The notes under the pieces are model-generated. The model was not told the origin of the DNA, made no database searches, and was given only the letters and a program-made list of their open reading frames with translations. Made by a program: the position numbers and the translations under genes. 64,000 nucleotides of DNA from Gammaproteobacteria bacterium (GTDB lineage: Bacteria; Pseudomonadota; Gammaproteobacteria; HyVt-429): the NCBI GenBank assembly GCA_013152415.1, contig JAADGI010000005.1, forward strand, positions 16,949-80,948, given 5' to 3'. Shown here piece after piece: positions 45,760 through 50,431 of this stretch. Position 1 is the stretch's first letter. Each line of letters begins with the position of its first letter.

Positions 45760-46670
45760 CCGAGACGGTGGTCGAGGCGCAGGGTCTGACTAAACGTTAT
45801 GGCGACACCACCGTAGTACGAGGCATCGACCTCAGCGTCCCCCAAGGTCAATGCTTTGGCCTGCTCGGCCCCAACGGGGCCGGCAAGACCACTACCTTGC
45901 GCATGATTCTCGGTGTCACCCCCCGAGACGGTGGGGCGCTACAGATCTTTGGTGTGGATGATCCCAAACAGGCGCACCGGATTCGGGCGCGCATCGGGGT
46001 GGTGCCGCAACTGGACAACCTGGACCCGGACTTTAGTGTCATCGAAAACCTGTCGGTCTATGCCTCCTTCTTTGGCCTGCATGGCACAAAGATAAAAAAA
46101 CGTATCCAACAGCTACTTGAATTCACCGAATTGAGTGATCGTGCCCACACCAAGATCGATGACCTTTCCGGCGGATTAAAACGACGCCTCACCATCGCCC
46201 GGGCACTGATCAACGACCCGGAATTGATCATCCTCGACGAACCCACCACCGGCCTGGACCCCCAGGCCCGGCACATGATCTGGGCACGGCTGCGACAGAT
46301 ACGCCAATCGGGAAAGACTTTGCTGTTGACGACGCACTACATGGAAGAGGCCGAACGCCTGTGTGATGACATCGTCATTATGGACAACGGCCACATCATC
46401 GCCCAGGGTTCACCGGCTGTACTGGTGCAACAGCATATCGAGACCCAGGTGATTGAAGTGCGCGGTATGACCGAATCGATTACGATCAACCTTGACACCT
46501 TCCCACCCTGTCGCCGCCAACAGGTAGGCGACACCCTGTATTGTTACGTGGACGATGTGCGCCCCTTATTGGCACACCTGGAAAGCCTGGACAACATCAC
46601 CACCCTACAACGCCCCGCCAATCTGGAAGACGTGTTCCTAAAACTCACCGGCCACGAACTTCGGGATTGA
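45756..46670 (+). CDS. ABC exporter ATP-binding protein, NodI-like
   Basis: This 304-aa protein has Walker A GPNGAGKTTT (about 38-47), signature DLSGGLKRRLTIARAL, Walker B LIILDEPTTGLD and the switch His in LLLTTHYMEEAERL. The NodI/DrrA group pairs with a single ABC-2 permease, which follows 2 bases after. Its ATGA start overlaps the glpD stop. The exported compound is not known; the link with glycerol genes may be positional only. Confidence 0.92.
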   Translation: MTETVVEAQGLTKRYGDTTVVRGIDLSVPQGQCFGLLGPNGAGKTTTLRMILGVTPRDGGALQIFGVDDPKQAHRIRARIGVVPQLDNLDPDFSVIENLSVYASFFGLHGTKIKKRIQQLLEFTELSDRAHTKIDDLSGGLKRRLTIARALINDPELIILDEPTTGLDPQARHMIWARLRQIRQSGKTLLLTTHYMEEAERLCDDIVIMDNGHIIAQGSPAVLVQQHIETQVIEVRGMTESITINLDTFPPCRRQQVGDTLYCYVDDVRPLLAHLESLDNITTLQRPANLEDVFLKLTGHELRD

Positions 46671-46672
46671 CC

Positions 46673-47449
46673 ATGGATTGGCAACTGCCTCATACCAATC
46701 TTAGGGCCTTGTCGGTGTGGCGACGCAATATACTGGTCTGGCGTAAATTGATGGGGCCAAGCCTGCTCATCAACTTTGGTGAGCCTCTGTTGTATCTGCT
46801 CGGCCTGGGTTATGGCCTGGGACTTTTTATTGGCGAGATGTCAGACATGCCCTACCTGACCTTTCTCGCCTCCGGCATCCTCGCCTCCTCGGCCATGAAC
46901 ACCGCCAGCTTTGAAGGCATGTTCTCGGTCTACACCCGCATGGTGCCGCAACGCACCTACGAAGCCATGCTGGCCACCCCCCTGTCGGTAGACGACATCA
47001 TCGCCGGTGAAATGTTGTGGTGCGCCACCAAGTGCCTCATCAGTGGCACCGCCATCCTGGCCGTCGCCGCCGCCTTAGGTGCCGTCCACGGTAGCCAAGC
47101 ACTTTTTGTACTGCCCATCCTCTTTTTAGTGGGCCTGTGCTTTGCCGGCCCCGCCATCATCATGAGCGCCTTCTCCCGTGGCTATGAATTTTTCAATTAC
47201 TACCTCACACTCTTTATCACCCCCATGTTCATCCTCAGTGGGGTGTTCTATCCCATCAGCGCCCTGCCCGCCGGGGTACAGGCCGTGGTGCAACTGTTGC
47301 CCCTGACCCATGCGGTGCAATTGGTACGACCTCTGGTATCGGGGCAAGCGCTAACCGATGTGGGTCTGCATGTGGCGGTTATTGTGGGCTATGCGTTGGT
47401 AGCTTATTACTTTGCGGTGGTGCTGGTAAGGAAGCGGTTGGTGGTTTAA
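46673..47449 (+). CDS. ABC-2 permease, NodJ-like
   Basis: The true start is ATG 46673 (MDWQLPHTNLRALSVWRRN), 2 bases after the ATPase stop; the ORF track start at 46541 lies inside that gene. The 258-aa product has about six membrane segments and the ABC-2 pattern including MVPQRTYEAMLATPLSV and FNYYLTLFITPMFILSGVF. It forms the membrane part of the exporter with the preceding ATPase. Confidence 0.92.
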   Translation: MDWQLPHTNLRALSVWRRNILVWRKLMGPSLLINFGEPLLYLLGLGYGLGLFIGEMSDMPYLTFLASGILASSAMNTASFEGMFSVYTRMVPQRTYEAMLATPLSVDDIIAGEMLWCATKCLISGTAILAVAAALGAVHGSQALFVLPILFLVGLCFAGPAIIMSAFSRGYEFFNYYLTLFITPMFILSGVFYPISALPAGVQAVVQLLPLTHAVQLVRPLVSGQALTDVGLHVAVIVGYALVAYYFAVVLVRKRLVV

Positions 47450-47457
47450 CGCTCGTC

Positions 47458-47477
47458 ATTCCGGCGGAGGCCGGAAT
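47458..47477. repeat. REP-like palindrome after the NodJ gene
   Basis: ATTCCGGC, loop GGAG, GCCGGAAT form a perfect 8-bp stem 8 bases after the permease stop. The surrounding GTCATTCCGGCGGAGG wording is a dispersed palindromic repeat found in many proteobacteria. It may stop transcription or protect mRNA, without a T-run. Confidence 0.65.
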
Positions 47478-47503
47478 CCAGAAGAAAATTATAATAATAA
47501 TTT

Positions 47504-47528
47504 GCCGCAAAGGCGCTGAGGCGCAAAG
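47504..47528 (+). repeat. 25-bp dispersed repeat, copy 3
   Basis: GCCGCAAAGGCGCTGAGG...CAAAG matches the two copies beside hemE at all but two positions each. It lies in the 206-base gap before the 653-aa PIN-like gene, next to the REP-like palindrome. Confidence 0.7.
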
Positions 47529-47655
47529 GGTTCGCAAAGAAAAACCCCTCAAAACTCACCAAGATCACTACCCAGCATTGCCCCTATCACTTGTGTGGGT
47601 TCATAATGTGGGCATATCGGAAGAATTTTGGACCAACACATAAGGAGATGCTGCT

Positions 47656-49617
47656 ATGAATAAGTTACCTCGGAATTTGGTTGCCTATGCCCTAGTTAGA
47701 GATGATTATGTTCAATCTGGCGATCTTCTTCAAGGCTTAATGCCACTGTTTGAACCAATATTAGCAGAGCAACGCGGAAGAATTTTTGATCCCACCGCAT
47801 TCGCACGGGAAGTCACATCACGCTATGACATCCCCATGGCACCACTTGTAGCCGAGGGTCTTGTCGCTGATATGACGCATGCGCGTCTATTGCAAATGGA
47901 AGGAGATCAGCACACTGCCGTTTATCGTGTCACGAAAAAACTAAAGCCACTCAAGGACTCGGCCTGTGCCGAACGCCTTCAATCTATAATTAGCGATTTT
48001 CTAGGGTTTTCTAAAAAACATCTAAAAGACGCGAACAGAGAGATCTCGCAAGAGAAATTAGAAACTGGGTTATTCGAGCGATTCAAGACTTCCGATTTTC
48101 TGGGAATAGTCGAACAAGGCGAGGGCGAAATCGAAGACACAGATAGGGAAATGGCTGATGAGAGAGCTATCGATATTCTGTGTGCCGAGTTTGTACTTAG
48201 TCTCTCTGAGCAAGATTTGGAATTATTAGTTTCGGTAATAAAGGGTGCTCTGATTGCCGAACTAGTTCTGTCTTTGCAGGCACGGCCTACTGATCTAGAG
48301 ATTCTATCAAATGTCTCTATTGTATGGGACGGGCCACTTCTGCTTGACCTTCTTAATCTGAATACGCCCGAACTTTTTCAATATGCGACTGACCTTTTGG
48401 AGCTGATAAAAAAGACTGAGATGCGCAGCGTGGCATTCAGGCATTATTACAGAGAAATGGTGAGCATCATAGAAATGGCGATCCAATCGGTAAATCAAAA
48501 CGCTGTTCAATCCCAGATGGTAGGACAGCGAATAAAGGCAGACCGCGACAGGTTCGTAGGGGCACAACATCTAATTGGCAATTTACAAACTGAAATTGAA
48601 CGCCGCGGGTTTAAGACTCTTCTTGCAAGCGATTATGTAAGTCAAAAATACTTACAGTACTGCTCCCGTGACTTGGAAGATAAGATTAGGAACAACTTGG
48701 GTTACTTACATGAAAAGCTAGAAGCGAGAGAAAGGGATGCTTTGACAGTCGCAACTACAATTCGGTTGCGCGGAAGACAAAGAAATCCAAAAACTCTTTC
48801 TAAGGCTGGCTGGGTCTTTGTAACCAGAAACCGTGTGCTGGCCGAAAGATCTCGAAAAACACTGCTCATGGAAAAAGAGTTTCAAGAGACGGACTTTCCT
48901 GTCGTTATTTCTGATCGACAGCTTGCGGGTCTGCTTTGGCTGGCGGTGGGTGGGAACCTTGGTTCGTTGTCTAAAAAACGGTTGATAGCAAATTGCATGA
49001 GAGTGCTGACCCCAGGTGCTCAGGTCGTACGAAAAATGATGGAAGTACTTAACGAGACTAGTACAGAGGACACCGAAACATTCAAGACTCTTGTAAATGA
49101 TGAGCGTGTGCGGAGACGCCTGACAGTTCAAACTATTGGTGGTCCACCAACCATTACGCCTCAAAATGCGCGACAGAATATGGACGAGTTGAAAGCCGTT
49201 GTGGCTCAGGAATATGAACAGAAGCTGGATACCGAACAGACAAAATCAAAAGCGCTTAAATCGGAGGTTTCGAATCTAGAAGGTGAGGTGAGTGAGCTTA
49301 AGTCTCTCTTTAAAAATCAAACTAAATCAATAGAGCGGCAAGTGAAGCGGTCTGGAGACCGCGCTGAGCGATTCTCTCGTTTCCTAATCGTAGGTACGTT
49401 CTTTGCCGTGCTAGTCTTAGGAGCATGGCTCGGACTTGATAAAACAATGGCCAAGTATGTAACTGGAATCTCTTTTTTTCTGTCGGCCATAACCTTTTGG
49501 AGGTTCCCAGATATATTGTTTGGAGGAATAGTCAAAAAATGCAGGGGTATGGCCGAACGTAGGAAACGCCTACAGATTGAAAAATCAATGGGGACAGACA
49601 GGATTGATAAGAATTAA
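47656..49617 (+). CDS. Large membrane protein with a PIN-like nuclease pattern, unknown function
   Basis: This 653-aa protein begins after AAGGAG and matches no family I can name with certainty. Residues about 218-400 follow the PIN order: a hydrophobic strand ending in D225 (VSIVWDGPLLLDLL), an acidic residue E267 in a helix after SVAFRHYYRE, D362 in RERDALTVATTI, then a strand WVFVTRNRVLA. Residues about 505-570 form a coiled coil, and two membrane segments follow (about 576-594 and 600-618) with a basic tail. The N-terminal 200 residues are helical. A membrane-anchored RNase of defence or toxin type is my inference. Codons are clearly AT-richer than in neighbours, and the gene is bounded by repeats, pointing to transfer. 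Confidence 0.6.
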   Translation: MNKLPRNLVAYALVRDDYVQSGDLLQGLMPLFEPILAEQRGRIFDPTAFAREVTSRYDIPMAPLVAEGLVADMTHARLLQMEGDQHTAVYRVTKKLKPLKDSACAERLQSIISDFLGFSKKHLKDANREISQEKLETGLFERFKTSDFLGIVEQGEGEIEDTDREMADERAIDILCAEFVLSLSEQDLELLVSVIKGALIAELVLSLQARPTDLEILSNVSIVWDGPLLLDLLNLNTPELFQYATDLLELIKKTEMRSVAFRHYYREMVSIIEMAIQSVNQNAVQSQMVGQRIKADRDRFVGAQHLIGNLQTEIERRGFKTLLASDYVSQKYLQYCSRDLEDKIRNNLGYLHEKLEARERDALTVATTIRLRGRQRNPKTLSKAGWVFVTRNRVLAERSRKTLLMEKEFQETDFPVVISDRQLAGLLWLAVGGNLGSLSKKRLIANCMRVLTPGAQVVRKMMEVLNETSTEDTETFKTLVNDERVRRRLTVQTIGGPPTITPQNARQNMDELKAVVAQEYEQKLDTEQTKSKALKSEVSNLEGEVSELKSLFKNQTKSIERQVKRSGDRAERFSRFLIVGTFFAVLVLGAWLGLDKTMAKYVTGISFFLSAITFWRFPDILFGGIVKKCRGMAERRKRLQIEKSMGTDRIDKN

Positions 49618-49691
49618 AGGGGTCAGCATGAACCTCCTTTAGTAATATCCTGCTTTCTGCCTCGAAAATCCTAATTATCAGTAGCAATTGT
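49611..49691 (+). repeat. About 80-bp direct repeat, copy A
   Basis: The block begins GAATTAAAGGGGTCAGC, includes the stop codon of the 653-aa gene, and continues through AATATCCTGCTTTCTGCC to GTAGCAATTGTAA. A second copy occurs at 49937-50018 with roughly 85-90% identity by eye. Confidence 0.75.
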
Positions 49692-49724
49692 AATAATTGA
49701 ATAATTGAATAATTGCAGAATAAT
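49688..49724. repeat. Short AT-rich tandem repeat
   Basis: Four near-copies of an AATAATTG unit with period about 9 lie between the two long direct repeats, just before GGGGTCAGAGC. They are simple-sequence DNA and not a CRISPR. Confidence 0.6.
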
Positions 49725-49746
49725 TGGGGTCAGAGCAAAAACTCTA

Positions 49747-49937
49747 ATGCTGCCAGACGCATCAAAATATAATCCAGACCCAGACTATCTGCGCGATCTT
49801 CTGAATAAGGCGGGATATTCACAGCGTGGCGCACGCTCGTCAGTATGCGCACCATACGGGATTATCTCAATGTAAATCATCCTAGCGAGGCACCGTATCC
49901 GGTACAGTTTTGTTTAGAAGCTTTGGCGTCCGACTAG
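49747..49937 (+). pseudogene. Frameshifted small helix-turn-helix protein
   Basis: An ATG at 49747 gives MLPDASKYNPDPDYLRDLLN, then KAGYSQRGAR, and the frame soon stops. A second frame, from about 49830, continues RTIRDYLNVNHPSEAPYPVQ and FCLEALASD to a TAG at 49935-49937. Joined, they make a roughly 65-aa protein of the small helix-turn-helix type with a SQRxAAR recognition helix and a C-terminal APYPVQFxLExLA block that I recognise from short regulators. The break lies at about 49805-49835. The gene is wholly enclosed by the two direct repeats. Confidence 0.5.
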
Positions 49938-50018
49938 AATTAAAGGGCTCGGAGTGAGCCTCCTTTTAGTAATATCCTGCTTTCTGCCCCGAAAACCCAA
50001 ATTATCAGTAGCAATTGT
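49937..50018 (+). repeat. About 80-bp direct repeat, copy B
   Basis: The block begins GAATTAAAGGGCTCGGAG, runs through AATATCCTGCTTTCTGCC, and ends near TAGCAATTGTC. It starts at the end of the broken helix-turn-helix gene, just as copy A starts at the end of the PIN-like gene. Confidence 0.75.
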
Positions 50019-50166
50019 CAATATATGGTTTATAGTGGCACTCTCGCAGAGAAGTCCTCGTAGTCAGCTCGGAAGTTCCCCTCCTGTTTTGGAAGCCACT
50101 ACCGTCACTTCGCTTTTAGGACATATCTGCGGTTTATCACAACTTAACATTTAGAGGTATATATTC

Positions 50167-50370
50167 ATGGCTTCAGGAACAGTTAAATGGTTTAACGATT
50201 CAAAAGGCTTCGGTTTCATTTCACCTTCAGATGGCAGCAAGGATGTATTCGTGCATCACAGCGCCATTCAAGGCGATGGTTTTAAGTCGCTGGCTGAAGG
50301 TCAACAAGTGTCATACGGCATCGAAGATGGCCCGAAGGGTCCGTCGGCGACGAATGTCCAACCGGAGTAA
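50167..50370 (+). CDS. Cold-shock domain protein
   Basis: This 67-aa single CSD protein has RNP1 (KGFGFI) and RNP2 (VFVHH) intact. It binds single-stranded nucleic acid and acts as an RNA chaperone. AGAGGT precedes the ATG, and a strong terminator follows. A 5' leader of unknown length may lie in the 150 bases upstream, but I cannot mark a cold box. Confidence 0.95.
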
Positions 50371-50402
50371 GCAGTTCTCACTGCACAAGCTGTTTTGAGT
50401 GA

Positions 50403-50431
50403 GGCCCCGCTTGCGCGGGGCCTTTTCTTTT
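50403..50431 (+). terminator. Rho-independent terminator of the cold-shock gene
   Basis: GGCCCCGC, loop TTGC, GCGGGGCC gives a perfect 8-bp GC-rich stem, directly followed by TTTTCTTTT. It sits 33 bases after the stop codon and is the clearest intrinsic terminator in the window. Confidence 0.92.

Follow-up and report, generated by a model that had tools for sequence, protein, structure and literature searches.

A membrane-anchored PIN-like protein from a gammaproteobacterial genome and its remote homologues: a candidate single-gene phage-defence family

The window, a 64,000-nucleotide stretch of a gammaproteobacterial contig, carries a gene for a PIN-like protein whose family was missed by the libraries searched here. 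Members occur on plasmids and in prophages, and they come from four phyla or more. The gene is mobile cargo that often occurs in defence contexts, and we consider it probable that its product is a single-gene, membrane-tethered, autoinhibited PIN ribonuclease that aborts phage infection.

A 653-residue protein of no assigned family had been read from the letters alone in the first-pass annotation, and both points were confirmed. The reading frame is intact, from an ATG start codon and with no internal stops, and the gene is present in one copy in the 2.74-Mb genome (Table 1). Single-protein searches of Pfam, NCBIfam, PADLOC and the PDB with the window protein gave nothing usable. PADLOC-DB 2.0.0 returned no family for the window protein, and a seven-member alignment yielded weak, unrelated matches only.

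Table 1. Positions of the features discussed, numbered along the window
Feature	Position	Strand	Basis
Conserved 51-bp block, 88% conserved before a different insert in congener G001	47575..47624	+	alignment
Shine-Dalgarno-like AAGGAG	47643..47648	+	by sequence; ~8 nt 5' of start
Whole gene, 653 aa	47656..49617	+	intact ORF, single copy in genome
N-terminal helical region, ~aa 21-100 (putative)	47716..47955	+	alignment, low-confidence AF2 helices; inference
PIN domain region, aa 210-440	48283..48975	+	alignment, hhalign, Pfam; low-confidence AF2 topology
Codon of D225, PIN motif I	48328..48330	+	kept in 19/19
Codon of E267, PIN motif II	48454..48456	+	kept in 19/19
Codon of D361, PIN motif III	48736..48738	+	14/14 of core clade
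Codons T390-R-N392, PIN motif IV	48823..48831	+	alignment, hhalign
Coiled-coil-like charged helix, ~aa 501-570	49156..49365	+	AF2 helix; coiled-coil similarity matches
Membrane hairpin, aa 576-594 and ~600-620, then basic tail	49381..49515	+	hydropathy
Direct repeat copy 1, starting at the stop codon of the gene	49610..49691	+	sequence comparison
Direct repeat copy 2, with terminator-like hairpin	49936..50018	+	sequence comparison

We identified 18 remote homologues, mostly full-length, in Gammaproteobacteria, other Proteobacteria, Firmicutes, Actinobacteria and Bacteroidetes. As most matches span the protein from end to end at 12-21% identity to the window protein, the architecture is conserved. 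The first members, from Arthrobacter and Enterococcus faecium, were found by tblastn in plasmids, and further members come from Sporosarcina, Hymenobacter, Klebsiella, Pantoea and Listeria (a fragment), as well as Kluyvera, Salinibius, one P2-like contig of IMG/VR and four proteobacterial genomes. Many of the copies are plasmid-borne, and additional ones from Citrobacter, Pantoea and Duffyella make up a distant clade. The distribution is rare and patchy: the gene occurs in 2 of 5426 E. coli genomes, in none of 94 other relatives, in 2 of 368 other members of the class and in 2 of 398 other members of the phylum. No relatives were found in the first scan of genome contigs, in six of seven viral-contig scans, or by tblastn in annotated phages. 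The FastTree phylogeny of the family does not track species, and it places the window protein together with two copies whose genomes belong to other classes (support 0.95/0.99). Between two enterobacterial copies dN is 0.066 and dS 1.15, a ratio of 0.057 that indicates purifying selection.

The identity of the central domain is carried by a small set of residues. D225, F261, E267, R372 and W428 are invariant in an alignment of 19 sequences, with T390 kept in 18 and N392 in 15. D225 and E267 had been singled out in the first-pass annotation as acids of a PIN nuclease site and are correctly placed, as is the FVTRNRVLA stretch (residues 388-396), but the third acid was wrong by one position: residue 362 is an alanine, and the acid is D361. 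This residue is present in 14 of 14 core-clade members and lost in five members of the distant clade (L011, L012, L015, L016 and L017), which keep D225 and E267 and have partly lost N392. As D361 is gone from these five, catalysis there may be lost; they may be inactive or may use another residue.

We used hhalign to compare a 13-member alignment of the PIN region with ten genuine PIN_3 proteins gathered by Pfam search. Over the full region (P=0.0011), D225 falls on the motif I Asp and E267 on the motif II Glu of PIN_3, a register that puts both acids at PIN catalytic motifs and agrees with the earlier expectation that they belong to one site. The N-terminal half matched at P=1.6e-4, a score reached by 0 of 200 column shuffles, and the C-terminal half, with its VFVTxN strand and T390xN392, at P=0.0042 (0 of 100 column shuffles). 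D361 lies outside this C-terminal match, and its assignment to motif III comes from conserved position and spacing. The best Pfam values among the members are E=2.7e-4 for PIN_3 and E=0.02 for PIN_12, with two members matching each model; no PIN model is matched by the window protein. The family shares PIN catalytic motifs in register with VapC and Pfam PIN_3 (PF13470). VapC-like proteins, however, are soluble, about 130-150 aa long and accompanied by an antitoxin, whereas the window protein has about 650 aa, is predicted to be membrane-tethered, has no partner, and carries a helical insert of ~90 aa between motifs II and III that parts motifs I/II from III/IV.

Predicted structures agreed with the by-eye fold match in part: PIN topology and PIN-like structural neighbours were seen, but in models of low confidence. 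AF2 gave a mean pLDDT of 41 for the lone window sequence and, with a four-sequence alignment, a poor model of mean pLDDT 45 and pTM 0.33. In this weak model, strand 220-224 runs into D225, strand 257-261 precedes E267, D361 sits on helix 356-374, and strand 385-389 precedes TxN, a topology that fits the alternating alpha/beta PIN fold (pLDDT 45; Foldseek E>0.04). Foldseek returned no significant match for the model; its best BFVD entry, a viral protein, was a ‘PIN like domain’ (prob 0.89, not significant), and among the PDB matches, again non-significant, the PIN-like nucleases EXO1, FEN1, XPG and HARP RNase P appear repeatedly. Overall, the PIN fold is well supported by sequence, and the models are only consistent with it.

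The N-terminal ~100 aa look winged-helix-like by eye. The coiled coil proposed earlier is upheld by coiled-coil similarity matches and by a single long AF2 helix at residues 502-592, predicted at low confidence. Two membrane helices had been proposed to follow. The first, at 576-594, is clear (Kyte-Doolittle 2.38); the second, at ~600-620, is under the threshold in the window protein, yet it is found in almost all homologues. By hydropathy, almost all family members have a C-terminal hairpin of two transmembrane (TM) helices with a long charged helix before it and a basic tail after it, which suggests that both ends of the protein are cytoplasmic.

A two-TM hairpin with a helical flank is also the layout of SLATT proteins, predicted pore-forming effectors in conflict systems (PMC7159879), and the protein could in principle be a two-headed effector in which such a hairpin kills by membrane disruption and the PIN domain acts as sensor or regulator. 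The C-terminus of one member matches NCBIfam SLATT_4 at E=8.9e-6, that of the window protein matches SLATT_1 at E=0.028, and one locus (L005) lies beside CBASS. Nevertheless, the match of the window protein, at 14.4 bits, is far short of the curated cut-off of 41. Of 15 members, 2 have SLATT matches, and two-TM and coiled-coil families with no relation to SLATT score alike. The family also has a nuclease domain whose PIN residues are conserved, whereas the alignment of the membrane segment has no invariant column. We regard this reading as very unlikely. We considered assigning the hairpin to SLATT and did not accept this.

The locus itself has the appearance of an exchange site. The congener G001 is collinear with the window (85.6%) up to the end of an ABC permease gene, and the conserved block that follows is likely to be the left edge of the exchanged segment, judging from the alignment. 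Where the window has the PIN-like gene, G001 carries a HicB-like ORF and HEC-01A/B (L033:3790-6133), the latter a candidate defence system recognised by PADLOC at E=1e-96 to 1e-201. Because this cargo sits behind the same ABC permease, we consider that the site exchanges defence cargo. In G003, a genome of the same taxonomic family, the corresponding position is taken by a GGDEF/EAL gene. As for the ABC permease ORF (46541-47449; cf. L025), its TTG start at 46541 is probably too early, since the alignment with G001 crosses two TGA codons upstream of the ATG of G001.

The PIN-like gene has a GC content of 44.6% and a GC3 of 0.417; the five upstream genes have 52-57% and 0.58-0.71. The first-pass annotation had called it AT-richer than its neighbours, which is clear against these five and less so against the rsgA-like gene downstream (GC 48.8%, GC3 0.478); as that gene is nearly as AT-rich, the composition argument is moderate. 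Dispersed repeats before the gene and a direct repeat after it, both reported earlier, are present. The leader (47450-47655) holds short repeats found at 22 places in the genome, and the two copies of the direct repeat match over 31+54 nt (84%/94% identical) at an offset of 326-327 bp and are unique within the genome to 49610-50018. This repeat pair resembles the 3' ends of two cassettes, and a broken HTH-like ORF remnant (49749-49940) precedes the second copy. A TTAAAGGGGTCAGAGTGAAC-like motif is found in both copies and in only three places in the genome. An attC-type cassette origin of the repeat was considered and set aside; inspection by eye showed no attC core. The second copy overlaps the first bases of an Rfam cspA thermoregulator at 50012-50429 (E=2.6e-27).

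The defence role guessed for this gene in the first-pass annotation finds support in the HEC-01 swap and in the surroundings of the homologues, P2 cargo loci included. Taken locus by locus, these neighbourhoods point to phage defence. In Sporosarcina (L005), a recombinase gene comes before a type II CBASS (cyclase, E1-E2, JAB, SAVED), which lies about 1.2 kb from the gene. One E. coli copy (strain FDAARGOS_1337, L014:14001-15977) is placed between FI and G of a P2-like prophage, which is the Z/Fun slot annotated for phage exclusion (PMC3091744), and neither PADLOC nor Pfam gives a match that would tie it to a known exclusion gene such as P2 old, tin or fun. Two further copies, identical to each other, lie between ogr and D of P2-like prophages (L013 and L020). 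The Hymenobacter member (L006) abuts, in divergent orientation, a type III restriction-modification (R-M) mod/res pair accompanied by McrBC, with a TIR-domain gene and CHAT genes also in the vicinity. At L040, the gene is followed in the same direction by a type II C5 DNA methyltransferase gene and a 343-aa gene. The 343-aa protein (L040:5452-6483) has no PADLOC match and is a candidate restriction enzyme, and a 137-aa ORF of no recognised family directly 3' of the Hymenobacter member (L006:10123-10536) is a possible partner. Roughly half of the independent loci lack a neighbour recognised as a defence gene; these are E. faecium, Klebsiella, Pantoea, Kluyvera, G374 and G597, at all of which the gene stands alone, and Arthrobacter.

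An association with type I restriction is found in Salinibius (L019), where the gene lies within the R-M operon. The order is hsdM, hsdS, [gene], hsdR, YgjP, and the surrounding island is flanked on one side by a tyrosine recombinase. It overlaps hsdS by 13 bp and is separated from hsdR by 1 bp, and is thus translationally packed between them. The prrC gene is likewise located within a type IC R-M operon (PMC3874165), which raises the idea that the family consists of PrrC-like latent RNases that are silenced by a resident R-M complex (or by the membrane) and freed once a phage disables restriction. Two further loci, at which the gene is paired with R-M genes of type II-like and of type III, would fit such a guard. 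However, the PrrC/EcoprrI likeness in operon position concerns this one member and not the window gene, and R-M genes are absent near most members, the window's included. The involvement of three R-M types also makes a general specific protein contact unlikely. Furthermore, PrrC belongs to another fold and nuclease family. No PrrC-type ATPase domain was found, nor any Pfam match to the ABC-ATPase and anticodon-nuclease domains of PrrC. We therefore consider a PrrC-like guard unlikely as a general account, although it keeps some weight. A requirement for R-M partners was dropped, as most members are solitary.

A role outside defence was also weighed, with the PIN protein resembling a toxin-antitoxin component or serving plasmid maintenance, or acting as a membrane stress regulator. 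In its favour, plasmid carriage is common in the family and some copies adjoin Hok-like genes. Nevertheless, no conserved small antitoxin partner recurs across the loci, and no VapB-like antitoxin ORF was found next to the window gene or at the annotated homologue loci. The large architecture of 630-710 aa and the recurrence of R-M, CBASS and P2 cargo contexts also argue against this role, which we consider improbable.

Under the preferred reading of a membrane-tethered abortive-infection ribonuclease, the C-terminal two-helix hairpin would fix the protein to the inner membrane, with the coiled coil probably mediating oligomerisation and the putative metal-dependent PIN ribonuclease domain facing the cytoplasm. 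The protein would be kept inactive by autoinhibition until infection is sensed, perhaps by the N-terminal region, the membrane-coiled-coil unit or both. The active site (D225/E267/D361, T390xN392) may then cut RNA of the cell or of the phage, so that translation would halt and phage multiplication would be blocked; the analogy with VapC makes tRNA the likeliest substrate. Stress, rather than phage, could conceivably be the trigger.

PIN-based single-gene defence is already known. DS-3, found with DefensePredictor, is a validated single-protein PIN defence of E. coli, which works with no antitoxin and depends on the catalytic residues (PMC13092281). Both are single proteins with a PIN nuclease, no antitoxin and a proposed autoinhibition. 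In DS-3, however, the PIN domain is split between the N- and C-terminus (PMC13092281), a description that sets it apart from the window family, whose motifs lie mid-protein (225-392) and are followed by a C-terminal coiled coil and two TM helices. The family could still coincide with DS-3 or another published system. As DS-3 has already been validated, the kind of system is known, and what is new here is the anchoring in the membrane and the placement among R-M genes.

Tentatively, and with considerable doubt, we propose that these proteins form a new, widespread family of membrane-tethered PIN RNases that sense infection on their own at the inner membrane and, in some genomes, guard the R-M operons into which they are built. 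They would then correspond to PrrC, with a PIN nuclease and a trigger at the membrane. If the defence role is true, a membrane-anchored architecture would be added to PIN-based immunity, and the hsdS-[gene]-hsdR order raises the testable question of whether unrelated RNases have converged on guarding restriction enzymes.
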